Shown: piece by piece, positions 4,552 through 21,356 of the stretch
Position numbering within the stretch: the stretch's first letter is position 1
How the letters are laid out: each line of letters begins with the position of its first letter
Source of the DNA: a virus
Length of the DNA stretch: 23,245 nucleotides
Strand: one strand, 5' to 3'
Virus record (IMG/VR): IMGVR_UViG_3300030101_003782
Coordinates: 372 to 23,616 of that record
Position numbers and translations under genes: made by a program
Notes under the pieces: model-generated
Told to the model about the DNA's origin: nothing
Databases searched by the model: none
Seen by the model: the letters and a program-made list of their open reading frames with translations, nothing else

Positions 4552-5874
4552 ATGGAAAATAATTTAAAACAAGAAACAAAATTTAAACAGTCTTGGTTTG
4601 ACTATATGGGGTACAAACCTCATAAAGGTCAACGCAAGCTTCATTTTCCATCAAAAAAAACATCAAGGTTTTTTGTAATGGTGTGTGGAAGAAGATTTGG
4701 TAAAACAACTTGCTCTGCAATGGAGGCTACTTTTTTAGCTTCCCAGCCAAACAAAAGAATATGGTGTGTAGGCTTATCTTACGACAAAGCAGATTTAATG
4801 TTTAGAGAGATATGGAAAAAAATGGTTGTAGGTAAGCCTAACGATATTGAAAGAGCTTCAGAAAAAGAAAGATTTATAAAATTTAAATGGGGAACTGTTG
4901 TTGAGGGTAAATCAGCAGATAATCCAGACTCATTAGTAGGAGAAGGTTTAGACTTGCTAATTATTGATGAAGCTGCAAAAATAAAAAGGAAAATATGGGA
5001 TATGTATTTATCGCCTACTTTGTCAGATAGAAAAGGTAAAGGAATATTTATAACTACACCTGAAGGGTTTAATTGGGTGTATGATTTATATTTATTAGGG
5101 CAAAAAGACGATTTATGGGAGTCTCATCAAGCACCAAGTTGGGATAACGAGTTTGCTTTTCCAGAAGGTCAAGATGATGATTTTTTAAAAGAAAGAAAAA
5201 GAAATATGTCTAAAGAATCTTTTGACCAAGAATATGGTGCAAAGTTCACAACATTTGCTGGTCAAGTGTATCCTTTTGACCGTAATTTAGATACAGGATA
5301 TTTTCCATATAACCCTAATTACCCTACATTTTGTAGTATTGATTTTGGATACAGGATGCCAGCAGTAGGTTGGTTTCAAACACAAATGATAAATGGTGAG
5401 TGGCACATAAACATAATTGATGAAATTGTACATGAAACAAATATTAAAACAGATGAGCTTATACATCGTATCAAATCGAAACGGTATAATGTTCGTGCGT
5501 ACTATGGTGACCCAGCTGGTAAACAAGCTCAAGGACAGTCAGGGATGGGTGATATAGAAATCTTTAGACAAAATGGAATACAAATACAAACTATACGAGA
5601 TAAAGTTTCAAGAAATATAAGCTCTGGAGTAAGTCATGTTAGAGGTTTTATAGAAAGTGCTATGGGTAAAAGGTATTTGCATGTTGATAAAAAATGTCAA
5701 GGAATAGCAGAAGATTTAGAAAACTATCGCTATCCAGAACATAATGAAGGCAAAGATTTAAAGCCAGAACCATTAAAAGATGGATACCATGACCACTCAT
5801 GCGATATGATAAGATATTTTTTTATAAATAGATTCCCAATAAAACAACAAGAATTAATAGTGAGGAAAAGATGA
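4552..5874 (+). CDS. terL: Terminase large subunit (440 aa)
   Basis: ATP-driven DNA packaging motor and headful/end nuclease. The ATPase domain has Walker A C45-GRRFGKTT, Walker B LLIIDE (135-140) and the coupling motif TTPEG (168-172). The nuclease domain has the three acidic residues of the RNase-H fold: D264 (SIDFGY), D320 (YGDPAG) and D418 (DHSCDM). All expected residues are present, so the protein should be active. The frame is open further upstream, but the ATG at 4552 gives the normal N-terminus, and the longer frame would run into the scaffold region. No clear Shine-Dalgarno precedes it. The stop overlaps the portal start (ATGA). The small subunit is not adjacent; a candidate lies 3 kb away on the other strand. 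Confidence 0.95.
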   Translation: MENNLKQETKFKQSWFDYMGYKPHKGQRKLHFPSKKTSRFFVMVCGRRFGKTTCSAMEATFLASQPNKRIWCVGLSYDKADLMFREIWKKMVVGKPNDIERASEKERFIKFKWGTVVEGKSADNPDSLVGEGLDLLIIDEAAKIKRKIWDMYLSPTLSDRKGKGIFITTPEGFNWVYDLYLLGQKDDLWESHQAPSWDNEFAFPEGQDDDFLKERKRNMSKESFDQEYGAKFTTFAGQVYPFDRNLDTGYFPYNPNYPTFCSIDFGYRMPAVGWFQTQMINGEWHINIIDEIVHETNIKTDELIHRIKSKRYNVRAYYGDPAGKQAQGQSGMGDIEIFRQNGIQIQTIRDKVSRNISSGVSHVRGFIESAMGKRYLHVDKKCQGIAEDLENYRYPEHNEGKDLKPEPLKDGYHDHSCDMIRYFFINRFPIKQQELIVRKR

Positions 5875-7854: not shown

Positions 7855-7971
7855 ATCGTTTATTTGCTGCTGTAAAGCCTTTATTGCAAGCTTCATAGCA
7901 TAAATCTCAGCCATACACCAAACAATGCCTTTATCCCTGTCCTTGTTGCTCTTCTTTCTTTTTGATTTCAT
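7822..7971 (-). CDS. Small overlapping gene downstream of terS (49 aa), unknown
   Basis: The frame begins at an ATG (7971-7969) inside the 3' end of the terminase small subunit gene (41-nt overlap) and ends inside the 3' end of the plus-strand coiled-coil gene (33-nt overlap). The product has a basic start (MKSKRKKSNKDRDKG) and then a helical, amphipathic region (WCMAEIYAMKLAIKALQQQINDL) that looks like real protein. No good Shine-Dalgarno is present, and M20 is an alternative start. It may be read by coupling to terS. The call rests on composition only. Confidence 0.4.
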   Translation of the reverse strand: MKSKRKKSNKDRDKGIVWCMAEIYAMKLAIKALQQQINDLSNSHKEKSL

Positions 7972-8587
7972 TTATCCATGATTTTCGTTGTGCAGGAGTA
8001 GGTCTTCTTGCAGGCAAGGGTTTCATTCCTACCTTTTCAGCTCTTTTCTTCCAACTATACCACTCTCTACGTTTACTATTGTATTGTTCTTTTTCTTTGA
8101 TTGATTTAATGGTTTGTTTTATCTTCTTCTTTTCTTTGGTAACCCTTATCTTTTGGCTCTCTGTATTCCTTTCAGGTAACTCAACCTCAATATCAGGTAT
8201 TGAATCTACAATATCCTCTACTTCAGCATCCATAACCTCAAATTCAGCCTTTTCAGACTTCAAAAACTTCTCATAAGGACTATCAATAGTAACATTGACA
8301 TTCTTAACCAATTTACCACTATGTTCTAATATAAGGCGACCTGCCTGCACATTGCCCGCTTTAGCTTCTCGTATCATTGCTTGTAAAACCGCAGGCAGTT
8401 CCCCACCAAACTCTACCATATACCTTTCATATATAGCATCGACAAATTTGGGGTTCTTTCGCCAAATATATATCAAAGATGCAGACACACCAATATCCTT
8501 AGCTACCTCAGCAGCAGTAATATCAGGCTTTAAAGCATATAGCTCAATAGCCTTCAATACATCTGGTCTTTTAAGTAAGTCCGACAT
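7931..8587 (-). CDS. terS: Terminase small subunit (218 aa)
   Basis: Recognises phage DNA to start packaging. The N-terminus has a helix-turn-helix (about 22-45, DITAAEVAKDIGVSASLIYIWRKN) like that of phBC6A51/Nu1-type small terminases and insertion-element HTHs. A helical oligomerisation region follows (AVLQAMIREAKAGNVQAGRLILEHSGK), which is characteristic of phage small terminases. The C-terminal half is highly charged and ends with basic stretches and KKKEEQQGQG. The ATG at 8587 overlaps the stop of the upstream 54-residue gene (TGATG). A TTG one codon earlier is a less likely start. It is transcribed opposite to terL and 3 kb from it. Confidence 0.8.
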   Translation of the reverse strand: MSDLLKRPDVLKAIELYALKPDITAAEVAKDIGVSASLIYIWRKNPKFVDAIYERYMVEFGGELPAVLQAMIREAKAGNVQAGRLILEHSGKLVKNVNVTIDSPYEKFLKSEKAEFEVMDAEVEDIVDSIPDIEVELPERNTESQKIRVTKEKKKIKQTIKSIKEKEQYNSKRREWYSWKKRAEKVGMKPLPARRPTPAQRKSWINEIKKKEEQQGQG

Positions 8588-8751
8588 CAATATTTAATAG
8601 TGTTCTTTAAATACTTAGCAATCCACCAACAACGACCATTATCTGAAGCCTCATTAATAGCCTTCTCAATGCGTTTATATCGGTAATAAGAACTGCTTTT
8701 CTTCTTTACCTTAGCCTCCTCCCTTTTAGCGACTAAAGTTTCTTCTTTCAT
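8587..8751 (-). CDS. Small basic protein upstream of terS (54 aa), unknown
   Basis: An ATG at 8751-8749 opens a 54-residue frame with a Lys/Glu-rich N-terminus and a basic aromatic middle (SSSYYRYKRIEKAINEA), then GRCWWIAKYLKN. Its stop codon overlaps the terS start by one base (TGATG), so the genes are co-translated. It is the first gene of the short minus-strand terS operon. No domain is recognised; DNA-binding is conceivable from charge but unsupported. Confidence 0.65.
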   Translation of the reverse strand: MKEETLVAKREEAKVKKKSSSYYRYKRIEKAINEASDNGRCWWIAKYLKNTIKY

Positions 8752-9391: not shown

Positions 9392-9420
9392 TTGCGTAAT
9401 AATTAAAATATGCTTAAAAT
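9392..9420 (+). promoter_or_regulatory. Candidate sigma70-type promoter of the early operon
   Basis: TTGCGT (9392-9397), a 17-nt spacer and TAAAAT (9415-9420), giving a start near 9427 and a leader of about 40 nt. The same layout (TTGCAT, 17 nt, TAATAT) occurs before the annealing-protein gene at 12416, which supports both. The leader contains a short ACGC/GCGT hairpin. Confidence 0.4.
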
Positions 9421-9466
9421 AGAGCAACGCCCAAATTGAGCGTCAACAAAATAAAAAGGAAACAAC

Positions 9467-9673
9467 ATGCGACAAGATATTTTAAATGCAATTAAGACTT
9501 TTGATAACGACACGCTACTTGATGTTGCTTTAACTATGGGCTTTATTAATGTTAAGCAATTATTAGAGGCACGAAAAAATAATGAGCTACCAAAAAAAGC
9601 AACAAAAGAATATATTAGAAAAATGGCTTTAGCTGATGAGAATGTAGCTGAGTGCGTTCTTTTTAACGCTTAA
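9467..9673 (+). CDS. First early gene, small protein of unknown function (68 aa)
   Basis: Starts at an ATG with AAAAAGGAAAC upstream. The product is helical and has no signal or membrane segment. It contains NAIKTFDNDTLLDVALTMGF at about 7-26, then VKQLLEARKNNELP, and a C-terminal KEYIRKMALADENVAECV. The pattern is compatible with a small helical regulatory protein, but no helix-turn-helix could be assigned. As the first gene behind the candidate early promoter it is expected to be expressed immediately after infection. Confidence 0.7.
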   Translation: MRQDILNAIKTFDNDTLLDVALTMGFINVKQLLEARKNNELPKKATKEYIRKMALADENVAECVLFNA

Positions 9674-9707
9674 ATAAATAACTAAATAAAATAAAAGGAG
9701 TTAAAAT

Positions 9708-9902
9708 ATGAAAAAAGAAAGAGTTATAATAGATGTTTGGAACACAGAAGACGGCTACGAGATATTTAGGGTATATTTAGCAGGAAAATCGGCAGGAGTT
9801 CACGAGCCACCTAACAACACTCATAGCGGAGGGTTTTTCTACTATGATATAGATGATAGCTATTTTGAGGGTTGGGAGGTCGTAGAAGACTATAGAGTAT
9901 AA
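9708..9902 (+). CDS. Small acidic protein, unknown (64 aa)
   Basis: AAAGGAG lies 8 nt upstream of the ATG. The product is rich in Asp, Glu, Gly and aromatic residues (RVIIDVWNTEDGYEIFRVYL, GGFFYYDIDDSYFEGWEVV), and looks like a compact beta-rich acidic protein. Small acidic early proteins of phages are often inhibitors or DNA mimics, but nothing here proves that. Its stop codon touches the 5' strand of stem I of the first hammerhead-like ribozyme, so cleavage would leave this mRNA ending in the ribozyme. Confidence 0.7.
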   Translation: MKKERVIIDVWNTEDGYEIFRVYLAGKSAGVHEPPNNTHSGGFFYYDIDDSYFEGWEVVEDYRV

Positions 9903-9957
9903 TTCATACTGAAGAGCTTTTAAAAAGCGAAACGGCTTTAATTAGCCGTCTATGAAT
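9902..9957 (+). ncRNA. Type I hammerhead self-cleaving ribozyme, copy 1
   Basis: All parts of the hammerhead consensus are present in order. Stem I 5' strand is 9902-9908 (ATTCATA) and the core is CTGAAGA (9909-9915). Stem II is GCTTT/AAAGC with a TAA loop (9916-9928), followed by GAAA (9929-9932). Stem III is ACGGCT/AGCCGT (9932-9937 with 9944-9949) around a 6-nt loop. The cleavage-site base is C9950 (GTC), and the stem I 3' strand TATGAAT (9951-9957) pairs perfectly with the 5' strand. The A-U pair at the base of stem III and G-C at the base of stem II are kept. Cleavage is predicted between 9950 and 9951, 28 nt before the next start codon. The open stem is stem I. Confidence 0.9.
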
Positions 9958-9978
9958 AAAATAAAAGGAGTTAAGAAC

Positions 9979-10170
9979 ATGGAAAAAATGAACAGATACA
10001 AAGAGAACTTAAGGGTTACAGATTCTAATGTATATAGCTATAATACAAAGGTTGCCGATATAGACCATATTAAAAAAGAAGTGAGGGCTTTGGGTTGGTG
10101 GTCGGTTACTACATCAAAGCATATTAATTACGTGGCTTCTGAATATGGCTATAAATCGATAAAATCTTAA
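9979..10170 (+). CDS. Small protein between two hammerhead ribozymes, unknown (63 aa)
   Basis: AAAGGAG at 9964-9970 and an 8-nt gap point to the ATG at 9979. An in-frame ATG at 9952 lies inside the ribozyme stem and before the Shine-Dalgarno, so it is unlikely to be used. The product begins MEKMNRYKENLRVTDSNVYS and has VADIDHIKKEVRALGWWSVT in the middle. It is basic and has no membrane segment or known motif. The gene is bounded by predicted self-cleavage sites at 9950/9951 and 10211/10212. Its stop codon TAA (10168-10170) is part of stem I of the second ribozyme, so terminating ribosomes would cover or melt that helix. Confidence 0.7.
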   Translation: MEKMNRYKENLRVTDSNVYSYNTKVADIDHIKKEVRALGWWSVTTSKHINYVASEYGYKSIKS

Positions 10171-10218
10171 CTGAAGAAGCTCAAAGCAGAAACGGCTATT
10201 TTTTAGCCGTCTTAAGAT
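10164..10218 (+). ncRNA. Type I hammerhead self-cleaving ribozyme, copy 2
   Basis: Stem I is ATCTTAA (10164-10170) with TTAAGAT (10212-10218), a perfect 7-bp helix of different sequence from copy 1. The core CTGAAGA (10171-10177), GAAA (10189-10192) and C10211 cleavage base are identical. Stem III is ACGGCTA/TAGCCGT (10192-10198 with 10204-10210) around a T5 loop. Stem II is weak: GCT/AGC with a CAA loop and an A-A mismatch (10178, 10188) where a G-C is usual, so cleavage may be slower. Predicted cleavage is between 10211 and 10212, before the 10238 gene. Confidence 0.85.
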
Positions 10219-10237
10219 AATAAAAGGAGATTATAAA

Positions 10238-10453
10238 ATGAATAAAAACGAAAAGTATTACATAGATAAAGACGGCAAAATTGATGTATTAAATATTAAA
10301 TATAAATGCTATGATTATTTGGGTTCAAAAATGGGTTACAAAATATATATAAACGGCTCAAAGTTTCCTAAAAAACACGGCTTTTATTATACATCAATGT
10401 ATAAAGATAATTGCATAAAATATGCTATAAAAGATTTTTATAATAATAAATAA
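10238..10453 (+). CDS. Small basic tyrosine-rich protein, unknown (71 aa)
   Basis: AAAAGGAG precedes the ATG by 8 nt. The product is rich in Lys and Tyr (KNEKYYIDKDGKIDVLNIKY, then YKIYINGSKFPKKHGFYYTSMY) and ends in NNK. No membrane segment or known motif is present. It is the first gene downstream of the second ribozyme, so its mRNA would start with a 5'-hydroxyl at 10212 after cleavage. Codon choice is more AT-rich than in the replication genes further on. Confidence 0.7.
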   Translation: MNKNEKYYIDKDGKIDVLNIKYKCYDYLGSKMGYKIYINGSKFPKKHGFYYTSMYKDNCIKYAIKDFYNNK

Positions 10454-10466
10454 GGAGTTAATAAAT

Positions 10467-10556
10467 ATGAATAATAAATGGACTAAAGAAGATTATATTT
10501 CAATGTTTTATTTTACATTAATTATAATAATCTGGTATTTTATATTTTTCGGCTAA
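10467..10556 (+). CDS. Very small single-pass membrane protein (29 aa)
   Basis: An AAGGAG lies 8 nt before the ATG at 10467. After a short polar start (MNNKWTKEDYIS) the rest is a single hydrophobic helix (MFYFTLIIIIWYFIFFG) ending at the stop. The strong ribosome site and clean topology support a real gene. Small phage membrane peptides of this type can alter the host envelope or act as exclusion factors, which is inference. Confidence 0.6.
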   Translation: MNNKWTKEDYISMFYFTLIIIIWYFIFFG

Positions 10557-18277: not shown

Positions 18278-18700
18278 CTAAATAATTGATTTCCTAACTT
18301 TTCTTCCTATAATTTTTCTTGTTTCTATTTCTTCTGGTTTTCTTGCATCAGAACCAAATGTTCCAAAATTAATATTCCATTTATCTTGATTTTGGTTTAA
18401 CACTTTAGCTTTCATAACCTTCCCATCCCAATCAGAATAACTACATCCTGTTATCTCTAACTCTCCAATGTAAGTAAATAATAACTTAGTAAGCTCTGTA
18501 GATGCAAAACTAAATATAATAATTTTGTTATCACTTGTTTTAATAGTCCAACCATCACCTAATTTTTTAACAGCTTGTATTCTTCCTATGTAATCTATTT
18601 CAAACGCTGCTATCTCTCCATTAGTTTCAACAGAAACAGAACCGTTTCCGTACAATATTTTTACATCACTTGCTCTTGGTTTTTGTCTAAGTTCACTCAT
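18278..18700 (-). CDS. Small tail-associated protein, unknown (140 aa)
   Basis: Starts at the ATG at 18700, with AGGTG 6 nt upstream, and overlaps the end of the tail-hub gene by 8 nt (ATGAGTGA). A GTG three codons earlier is a less likely start. The protein is beta-rich (SVSVETNGEIAAFEIDYIGR, DNKIIIFSFASTELTKLLFT) and ends in a basic stretch (RKIIGRKVRKSII). No domain recognised. Its tight coupling to the hub gene suggests it joins the tail tip. Confidence 0.65.
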   Translation of the reverse strand: MSELRQKPRASDVKILYGNGSVSVETNGEIAAFEIDYIGRIQAVKKLGDGWTIKTSDNKIIIFSFASTELTKLLFTYIGELEITGCSYSDWDGKVMKAKVLNQNQDKWNINFGTFGSDARKPEEIETRKIIGRKVRKSII

Positions 18701-21356
18701 TGTCAACACCTAATATTTGATTAACCACCAACACAACATCGCCTATATTTATTTCTCCGTCGCCATTCATATCTCCATTAGTCAATGCTTGTCCTGTTAA
18801 GATGTTTGTTCCTAAAATATGGCTTACCATGAGGACAATATCTGATACAGAAACATCACTACTTAAAGTAACATCTCCAGCAACAGGCTCTATAAAATCT
18901 GCAAGGTTAATTGAATATGTTTGACCTTTGTAAGAAAAACTTTCATTTTGCATATGATGTAACTGTGTTGCTTTTATTTTTACTTTATCTAAACCTTTTT
19001 GGGTTTCTGTAATCATAAATAAAGGTAAAATAAATTGACCGCATCTTATTGGCATATCATCAGGATTTTTAACCACATAGTCTTCATTGTAAACCTTTTT
19101 ACCTAAAATCATTTCATCAAATTCAATTAAATCACCTATTTGTAAACCATAGTATTTTAAAGGCAAACTTAACTCAACAATGTTATGTTGATTGCAATTC
19201 CATAATAATAAAAACTTTGCCAGCTCATTAGCTGTTTGTGCATCTCTAATGTATTTGTTTTCTAAAGTTAGAAAGCTATCTATATAGTCTAAAGACTTAT
19301 CAATAATATTTGCAAAATTTTGGGATTGTGTTTGAGTTATTTTAAGTCCATAATAATTTTTAGTATTAGCACCAAGATTAAACTTTCCTTCCACAAGTTC
19401 TTTGTATGTACCATTAATAAAATATGCGTTCCTTAAATAATCTTCGTTTATTTTAATTAATCCTGTGCTTTGAGAAAAATTATCTAAACCGTAATCATAA
19501 TTATACTTTATTTCTATTTGAGTAATAACATCTTCTAATGGCGTTCTTGTAAAGTTGTACCCTAAGACTTCATCATGTTTAACAGTTTGGATATTTTCAT
19601 TACCTGTGTAATTATTTTTAATGTTGATAAACTTTAACATATCGTTAGAAAGGGTAGCAACAGATTGTGAAGATTGCATTATTTCTTCTATAAGCTTTTT
19701 GCTTTTTATTTTTTTATTTACACTAAAAGCCATTCTGTATTGTTGATTTATTATTCTTGATTCCTCTAATGAAAGTTGGTCTATTCTTTCAAGGTTGCCT
19801 GCATCGTAACCTAATTCATTTTCTAATATATGATATACAATATCAGCTGGCTTTTCAATTAAGTTGTCTGAAGGGTTATAATCAACCTCACTTTCATCAA
19901 AAATATTTATAATTTTTATAGTGTTTGTGTTACTAAAAGACCATTTACCAGAATCTTCTAAAGCTTCCCAAGAATTTTCAATATCTTCAACTGAATCTTG
20001 ATATTCAAATGTAAAACCAAAAAAATCATAGCTTGCAAAAGTAGCTTCAGACATTGCTTGAAAATTAGGGTTTGTTGTTTTTACAAATATATTAAAAGAA
20101 TCAACTTGACCACCTTGAGGATTAGTGAAAGAATCTGCAAAAAATTTAACTGGAATTTCTTTTGTTTCTCCTGCTTCTATGTTAAATGTGTAAATACCGC
20201 TATCATCAGAATATTGACCCCCTACCTCAACTCTTCCATAATTAACAATATTATCATCTGTTAGCTCTCCGTTAAAATTTAAAAACCCCTCATCTACATT
20301 TAATTGAGATATTAGGTTTTCTTGATTTTTATCAACAATATATACATTAAAATCACCTGCATAGTAACTTGAGCTTATTCTTAAAGTTCCTTCAATATCT
20401 TGTCCTTCAATAACAACAGGTGTTAAATCTAATTCAGCTATTCCTAAATCAAAATTCTTAACAAATTCTGTAAATTTTATAGGTGCATAAAGAATTGGGC
20501 TTTCATGTGGAGGTTTCACATCATTAGTATTTACAACATTAGTCATTGGAGATTCGCCAGATGTTAAAGGCGATGTGTCGGCACATTGAATTTTTTTGTT
20601 TAAAGTTGGTATATATTCGTTTGAATAACTTCCTTGACCGCCACCACTTACAAGCGGCGGAGTGTAAATTACATTTATGTTGTAAATTTCAAAAGAAAAT
20701 GTCATTAAGATAGTATGCCCAAAAAGCGTTTTCCTTTGATAAGAAAAGGAATCTTCTCCTCCATTTTCACTAAAATTTTCAGAAGTATCGTCTGCTTTCC
20801 CCCAAAATTCATCATACCCATCTGGCTTAATGTTTAAATATGGGAAATTCTCTAATTGTTGATTTTTTTGTGCTTGATTTAAAGCATTAGGATGTATAGG
20901 CGGTTCAAAATGAACAAATTGGTCACTTTTAAATTTGTAAACTAAATCATTGTTTAAAGTTACAATTATTGAATAGTTGTAATCTTCCCATTCTATGCTA
21001 TCTACCATATTAGGTTCGTCTTGAACATTAGGCTCTCTGCGATAAGGTAAATTCCATAATGTTGCCCCTATTCCATTTCCTAAAGCTCTAAATTGATTTG
21101 GGTTGTACTCTTCGGCGGCTTGGAAAAATTTATCATAAAAATTAGTACCACCTGCTCTATACCCAAACCCAAAAGAAGCTCCAAAAATATTTTTTACACC
21201 TAAAGTTCCTACTCCATTTTCACAGGCATTAAATAATTTATCTCCATCAACATCAATACCTGATATTTGACTATTATCATCTCTTCTTATTCTTAATTTA
21301 AGAGGCTGATAAAAGTTGGTTGAGTCGCTTTTAAATTCCCATATTAATGCAGACAT
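18693..21356 (-). CDS. Tail hub/tip protein with C-terminal dockerin-type module (887 aa)
   Basis: Large tail protein of the gpJ/hub type. Residues about 495-590 (ADIVYHILENELGYDAGNLE, then SVNKKIKSKKLIEEIMQSSQ) match the hub region of J-like tail tips. The first 480 residues are beta-rich and include an insert around 300-450 with an Ig-like pattern (YTFNIEAGETKEIPVKFFAD). The last 61 residues are a dockerin-like pair: a degenerate repeat (827-849) and a complete calcium loop D862-x-N-x-D-G-x-x-N-x-x-D873 followed by VVLVVNQILG. In bacteria dockerins dock onto cohesins or stabilise extracellular proteins. GGGGGTGG precedes the ATG, which overlaps the previous stop (TAATG). Confidence 0.8.
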   Translation of the reverse strand: MSALIWEFKSDSTNFYQPLKLRIRRDDNSQISGIDVDGDKLFNACENGVGTLGVKNIFGASFGFGYRAGGTNFYDKFFQAAEEYNPNQFRALGNGIGATLWNLPYRREPNVQDEPNMVDSIEWEDYNYSIIVTLNNDLVYKFKSDQFVHFEPPIHPNALNQAQKNQQLENFPYLNIKPDGYDEFWGKADDTSENFSENGGEDSFSYQRKTLFGHTILMTFSFEIYNINVIYTPPLVSGGGQGSYSNEYIPTLNKKIQCADTSPLTSGESPMTNVVNTNDVKPPHESPILYAPIKFTEFVKNFDLGIAELDLTPVVIEGQDIEGTLRISSSYYAGDFNVYIVDKNQENLISQLNVDEGFLNFNGELTDDNIVNYGRVEVGGQYSDDSGIYTFNIEAGETKEIPVKFFADSFTNPQGGQVDSFNIFVKTTNPNFQAMSEATFASYDFFGFTFEYQDSVEDIENSWEALEDSGKWSFSNTNTIKIINIFDESEVDYNPSDNLIEKPADIVYHILENELGYDAGNLERIDQLSLEESRIINQQYRMAFSVNKKIKSKKLIEEIMQSSQSVATLSNDMLKFINIKNNYTGNENIQTVKHDEVLGYNFTRTPLEDVITQIEIKYNYDYGLDNFSQSTGLIKINEDYLRNAYFINGTYKELVEGKFNLGANTKNYYGLKITQTQSQNFANIIDKSLDYIDSFLTLENKYIRDAQTANELAKFLLLWNCNQHNIVELSLPLKYYGLQIGDLIEFDEMILGKKVYNEDYVVKNPDDMPIRCGQFILPLFMITETQKGLDKVKIKATQLHHMQNESFSYKGQTYSINLADFIEPVAGDVTLSSDVSVSDIVLMVSHILGTNILTGQALTNGDMNGDGEINIGDVVLVVNQILGVDNE

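Follow-up and report, generated by a model that had tools for sequence, protein, structure and literature searches.

Paired type I hammerhead ribozymes between small genes of a tailed phage and their predicted role in mRNA processing

Two type I hammerhead ribozymes, HHR1 and HHR2, lie in the same sense on either side of one small phage gene and very probably self-cleave the polycistronic phage RNA cotranscriptionally, dividing it into single-gene mRNAs. The type I identity is settled by comparative sequence evidence; the processing role is predicted from the fold, covariation, and placement of the two elements.

Genomic setting and structure of the two hammerheads

The whole stretch of DNA analyzed (the window) is 23,245 nucleotides long and corresponds to positions 372 to 23616 of the 23,616-base virus record IMGVR_UViG_3300030101_003782. 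A large terminase and a major head protein are encoded in it, as is a Sak-type single-strand annealing protein, which marks it as DNA of a tailed phage. Small plus-strand genes form a rightward run from approximately 9467, and HHR1 and HHR2, both also on the plus strand, occupy the second and third visible gaps of this run. The upstream neighbor of HHR1 is a 64-amino-acid gene (9708 to 9902), the gene bracketed by HHR1 and HHR2 encodes a 63-amino-acid protein of PHROG 5643 (9979 to 10170), and a 71-amino-acid gene (10238 to 10453) lies downstream of HHR2. Promoter-like sites in the region were not in excess (19 versus 16.2 in shuffles), and blastn found no match to 9400 to 10500 in annotated phages.

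The first-pass annotation had claimed a full set of constant type I hammerhead elements, in order, at 9902 to 9957, and direct reading of HHR1 together with its MFE and centroid folds, which are exactly the hammerhead three-way junction (z of -2.65 to -2.69), bears this out. HHR1 begins with the stem I 5' strand AUUCAUA (9902 to 9908), whose first base, A9902, also completes the upstream stop codon UAA (9900 to 9902), followed by the core CUGAAGA (9909 to 9915) and by stem II, GCUU(UUAAA)AAGC (9916 to 9928), with the G10.1-C11.1 pair present at its base (G9916-C9928). Stem II can also be read as 5 bp (GCUUU, 9916 to 9920, with AAAGC, 9924 to 9928). The core GAAA (9929 to 9932; G12, A13, A14, and A15.1) leads into a 6-bp stem III hairpin (9932 to 9949), in which A9932 to U9937 pair with A9944 to U9949 and A15.1-U16.1 forms the base. 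The GUC triplet is at 9948 to 9950, and the stem I 3' strand UAUGAAU (9951 to 9957) would be the start of the predicted downstream mRNA. The predicted cut, 9950/9951, is 28 nucleotides ahead of the AUG at 9979; the placement described in the earlier annotation, between genes with the 5' edge on a stop codon and 28 nucleotides before the next start, is correct.

HHR2, which was absent from that annotation, spans 10164 to 10218 and reads AUCUUAA-CUGAAGA-AGCUCAAAGCA-GAAA-CGGCUAUUUUUUAGCCG-UC-UUAAGAU. Its predicted cleavage site, 10211/10212, is 26 nucleotides ahead of the start codon of the gene at 10238 to 10453, and the last three bases of its stem I 5' strand are the stop codon UAA (10168 to 10170) of the bracketed gene. 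All core nucleotides are kept, stems I and III are 7 bp each, the A15.1-U16.1 pair is present (A10192-U10210) along with GUC, and there is a U at position 1.7. The weak point is the shortened stem II, AGCUCAAAGCA (10178 to 10188), which lacks the G10.1-C11.1 pair and has A10178·A10188 instead; the rest of HHR2 is complete, and both elements contain the invariant core C3 U4 G5 A6 N7 G8 A9 ... G12 A13 A14. With stem II weakened by the A·A at 10.1/11.1, HHR2 may be slow. It is also possible, although we doubt it, that HHR2 is a decaying copy and that active HHR1 makes the only cut, between the genes at 9708 to 9902 and 9979 to 10170. The short stem II with its A·A would fit such decay, as would the rarity of a missing first stem II pair, seen in 3 of 196 members of the family described below, most of which have G-C. 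However, the full core, the 7-bp stems I and III, and the U at 1.7 are all retained, in another phage (L150) the HHR2 site holds a hammerhead whose stems differ, and core variants of hammerheads are sometimes active (PMC3088659).

Comparison with chance and with Rfam models

A covariance model, R1, was built from 12 sequences that included HHR1 and HHR2. In the window, R1 detected only HHR1 (75.3 bits; E value, 1.2e-17) and HHR2 (67.8 bits; E value, 1.2e-15), with the next best match at 13 bits, but the scores of the two are not independent because R1 was trained on both. When the whole window was shuffled 3000 times with dinucleotides preserved, an intact core with three helices was matched 2 times, compared to 2 times in the real window by itself, which puts the chance expectation at approximately 0.0007 per window. 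Large databases do throw up hammerhead-like motifs by chance, but two matches per 3000 shuffled windows versus two in adjacent gaps of one window, together with the covariation and conserved placement described below, contradict a chance resemblance to the hammerhead consensus, which we consider extremely unlikely. The earlier judgment that a chance match was very unlikely is upheld by these counts.

Rfam gave a different result. No family was reached at its gathering threshold anywhere in the window, by either HHR1 or HHR2. The covariance search that had been proposed as a check on HHR1 thus yielded no match at gathering, but the best subthreshold matches in the 1-kb region were hammerhead families: RAGATH-1-hammerhead (RF03152; 31.9 and 29.0 bits, with a gathering threshold of 56.3) and HH9 (19.3 bits). 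In the RF03152 model, stem II is a single base pair and a hairpin lies upstream, whereas HHR1 has a stem II of 4 to 5 bp and no conserved upstream hairpin is evident. With RF00163 the elements share the core, the topology with stem I open, the GUC triplet, and the contact between loop II and nucleotide 1.7; they differ in scoring below threshold and in belonging to a family with mostly a UNNNU pentaloop, not GNRA, and with U-A, A-U, or G-C at L2/1.7. The RF00163 gathering score that HHR1 and HHR2 fail to reach is a model threshold and not a defining chemical or structural feature. In seven related loci, Rfam passes only 1 of approximately 39 R1-defined members. This indicates a blind spot of the models, so that a lack of covariance hits, which had been named as grounds for refutation, is misleading when used in that way. 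Since the standard Rfam models miss almost all hammerheads of this architecture, their abundance is underestimated.

Covariation of the stems and of a tertiary contact

Relatives were collected with two sequence patterns, both of which left stem I unspecified. The first, the core plus a GGCU stem III, occurred at seven places in six virus contigs, and 7 of 7 also had stems I and II. The second, the core plus a GCC stem III, matched no more than 18 stretches when 257 Gb of cellular genomes were scanned. Among the matches listed, 99 of the 117 distinct virus-contig matches to the two patterns had a stem I of at least 6 bp (exactly 6 bp in 92 and 7 bp in 7), while none of 468 slid controls, in which the partner strand was moved by 2 to 3 bases, reached a stem I of 4 bp. 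Covariation extends over all three stems in the 12-member alignment, where 96.4% of cells are paired, 52 cells are changed on both sides, and the covariation score is 0.75, compared to 0.04 to 0.14 in slid registers. Of 196 distinct members, 169 have a 6-bp stem I and 155 have a 4-bp stem II, and loop II is usually a UNNNU pentaloop. Three helices are confirmed, with stems II and III capped and stem I open.

A tertiary contact covaries as well. The two solved hammerhead classes have in common a Hoogsteen A-U between an A that ends the stem II loop and a U that adjoins position 1.6 (PMC2553840), and the same contact is described in PMC9217987. HHR1 has A-U at this known position: A9924 is the last base of loop II and the expected partner of U9957, at position 1.7, directly 3' of a 6-bp stem I. 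Across the 196 members, the last nucleotide of loop II and nucleotide 1.7 are a Watson-Crick combination in 176, compared to a permutation maximum of 125, and nothing comparable was found at adjacent positions. The pair types are U-A in 131, A-U in 38, and G-C in 7; related sequences inflate these counts, and when each contig is counted once per type the numbers are 72, 27, and 7 contigs, respectively. A contact known as A-U in crystal structures covaries here (U-A, A-U, and G-C), which is useful for designing fast hammerheads. Because stem I of the relatives is nearly always 6 bp, the seventh pair of HHR1, A9902-U9957, probably opens and frees U9957 for loop II, so that in active HHR1 this pair is probably replaced by the contact between U9957 and loop II. 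The 7-bp stem I of the first-pass annotation is pairable over all 7 bp but is probably not wholly secondary structure.

The same data bear on whether the two structures are only mRNA-stabilizing or transcription-terminating hairpins that resemble hammerheads. Stem III would make a stable 3' hairpin, and there is a terminator-like match at 9951 to 9930 on the minus strand. The transcribed strand has no such match there, however, and a hairpin would need neither the conserved single-stranded core nor the covariation seen within stems I and II and between loop II and nucleotide 1.7, leaving this explanation very unlikely.

Placement between genes and predicted processing of the mRNA

Members of the family are sense oriented and intercistronic. 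A stop codon typically lies at stem I, and the distance from predicted cut to start codon is mostly 22 to 30 nucleotides. For the 188 members with enough flanking sequence, 56% have both the stop of an open reading frame on the 5' side and a start with a Shine-Dalgarno sequence no more than 60 nucleotides past the cut; the corresponding figures are 6% for random positions and 2% for the opposite strand. The upstream stop alone is found for 99% of members versus 51%, a figure biased by the UGA within the core; the downstream start alone, which is free of this bias, is found for 56% versus 12% and 3%. The sense intercistronic placement of these 188 relatives, the covariation of three stems, and the covarying tertiary contact agree with the type I identity and the mRNA-processing location that had been assigned to HHR1.

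In the mechanism that we propose for HHR1 and HHR2, each ribozyme would fold on the nascent polycistronic RNA once its stem I is complete and, with its stem II loop docked on nucleotide 1.7 (immediately 3' of a 6-bp stem I), would cut the RNA after GUC. The 3' end of the upstream mRNA would then be the stem III hairpin, bearing a 2',3'-cyclic phosphate, and the downstream mRNA would begin with a 26- to 28-nucleotide leader that has a 5'-OH and its own Shine-Dalgarno sequence: AAGGAG (9965 to 9970, plus strand) on the predicted 28-nucleotide leader of the bracketed gene and AAAGGAG (10223 to 10229, plus strand) on the predicted 26-nucleotide leader of the gene at 10238 to 10453. Cuts at both sites would release the bracketed gene as a 261-nucleotide single-gene mRNA (9951 to 10211), with a possible effect on its expression. 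A ribosome terminating at the upstream stop codon, which overlaps stem I, may transiently hold the ribozyme open and would thereby couple cleavage to completed translation.

The arrangement of one gene flanked by two type I hammerheads in the same sense also recalls viroid-like RNAs and retrozymes, and HHR1 and HHR2 could conceivably excise the bracketed gene, with the RNA then religated to a circular mRNA. Such circles would be favored by the interchangeable stem I strands of 45 of 86 consecutive pairs in other phages, compared to 9.7% of random pairs. HHR1 and HHR2, however, cannot exchange their stem I strands (1 bp), and self-ligation by HHR2 is therefore not expected. Circular or spliced products were sought for other phage hammerheads and not found (PMC3088659), and likeness of stem I within a contig can come from duplication. 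We consider circularization highly unlikely and retain linear, single-gene mRNAs as the predicted products. For the phages whose stem I strands are exchangeable, gene-length circles or cross-cleavage would be possible.

Stem I identity is 0.77 within contigs and 0.44 between contigs (196 members; loci L003 to L008 and L031 to L169). We considered selection for interchangeability as the cause and rejected it: stems II and III show an excess too, although a smaller one, when pattern-found members are left out, and shared ancestry by duplication is therefore enough to account for the similarity of stem I.

Arrays in other phages and known systems

Consecutive members are commonly 240 to 1000 nucleotides apart, which is the length of a gene. 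The largest array is on a 22.5-kb virus contig (L105), where 14 type I matches lie on one strand between 2288 and 8615, mostly in successive gaps of one operon; many of these share the stem I GUAAUA/UAUUAC, and a few are weak or deviate in the cleavage triplet or in stem III. Other related contigs have 9 members (L039) or 7 each (L003 and L005), and such dense arrays are widespread among uncultured phages. Clusters of hammerheads in prophages, which likewise border one gene or a short run of genes within a phage operon, were reported by Perreault et al. in 2011 with a proposed role in mRNA processing; the tandem examples were cleaved in vitro and, in one set, in E. coli as well (PMC3088659). 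The pair in the window is thus a further case of a known kind. The phage in that paper is a different one, and the arrangement described is a triple one, compared to up to 14, 9, and 7 in the contigs here; the unusual feature is how dense hammerheads can be elsewhere, with as many as 14 on a single 22-kb contig.

Two cultured phages offer comparisons. Agrobacterium phage OLIVR1 has an unannotated intercistronic type I hammerhead between gp12 and gp13 (L248, MT234338.1:3956-4017) with a 6-bp stem I, a 4-bp stem II, and a U-A 1.7 contact; it scores 31.4 bits with RF00163, compared to a threshold of 34 bits, and differs from the window pair in being a single copy and in having a cultured host. 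Streptomyces phage R4 (L249, NC_019414.1:41776-49461) also has repeated hammerheads between small phage genes, nine of them above gathering, including beside an Ocr-like antirestriction gene, but these are of the circularly permuted type II topology (RF02276). Short blastn matches had made R4, Yara (like R4, a Streptomyces phage), and MW202801.1 candidate carriers of type I hammerheads; their hammerheads proved to be type II, with those of Yara below threshold. OLIVR1 (type I) and R4 (type II) make a direct test practical.

The pair, the arrays, and the fixed geometry, with a stop codon at stem I and the predicted cut just ahead of a Shine-Dalgarno sequence, point to mRNA punctuation as a role for bacterial and phage hammerheads. 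Operons punctuated by ribozymes may even be a widespread phage strategy, in which the transcripts of early operons would be cut at gap after gap into single-gene mRNAs without host RNases, with cleavage tied to translation termination by the overlap of stop codon and stem I; we advance this broader suggestion tentatively, as one that falls somewhat short of probable.

The bracketed gene in other phages

The bracketed gene has 118 confirmed relatives, 80 of which were examined, and for 75 of these 80 no hammerhead was present in the flanking DNA covered; the element is therefore dispensable for this gene. The relatives of the upstream gene (9708 to 9902) in L001 and L002 likewise had no hammerhead. 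In the closest phage found (L150; portal 70% identical and terminase 73% identical over a part), a hammerhead directly follows the homologue of the bracketed gene, at the HHR2 site, with stems that differ from those of HHR2 by paired changes. In L161 and L169, a hammerhead directly precedes the homologue, at the HHR1 site, and in L158 and L159 weak matches lie farther from it. The recurrence at these sites in L150, L161, and L169 and the differing stems in L150 indicate that sites are reused, that sequences turn over, and that the element is optional. Just upstream of the homologue in L150, at 4947 to 4990, is a GGGG...CCCC hairpin holding CTGATGA, possibly a hammerhead relic or another permutation.

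Other genes in the window

Two minus-strand proteins were also noted. The 219-amino-acid protein at 7931 to 8590 has a transposase-type helix-turn-helix (PF13022), is conserved in L150, L169, and L158, and is a candidate for the small terminase subunit, the large subunit being encoded on the other strand. The 887-amino-acid protein at 18693 to 21356, in the structural-gene region, carries a C-terminal Dockerin type I domain (Pfam PF00404; E value, 2.4e-07), which is unusual for a phage tail-region protein.
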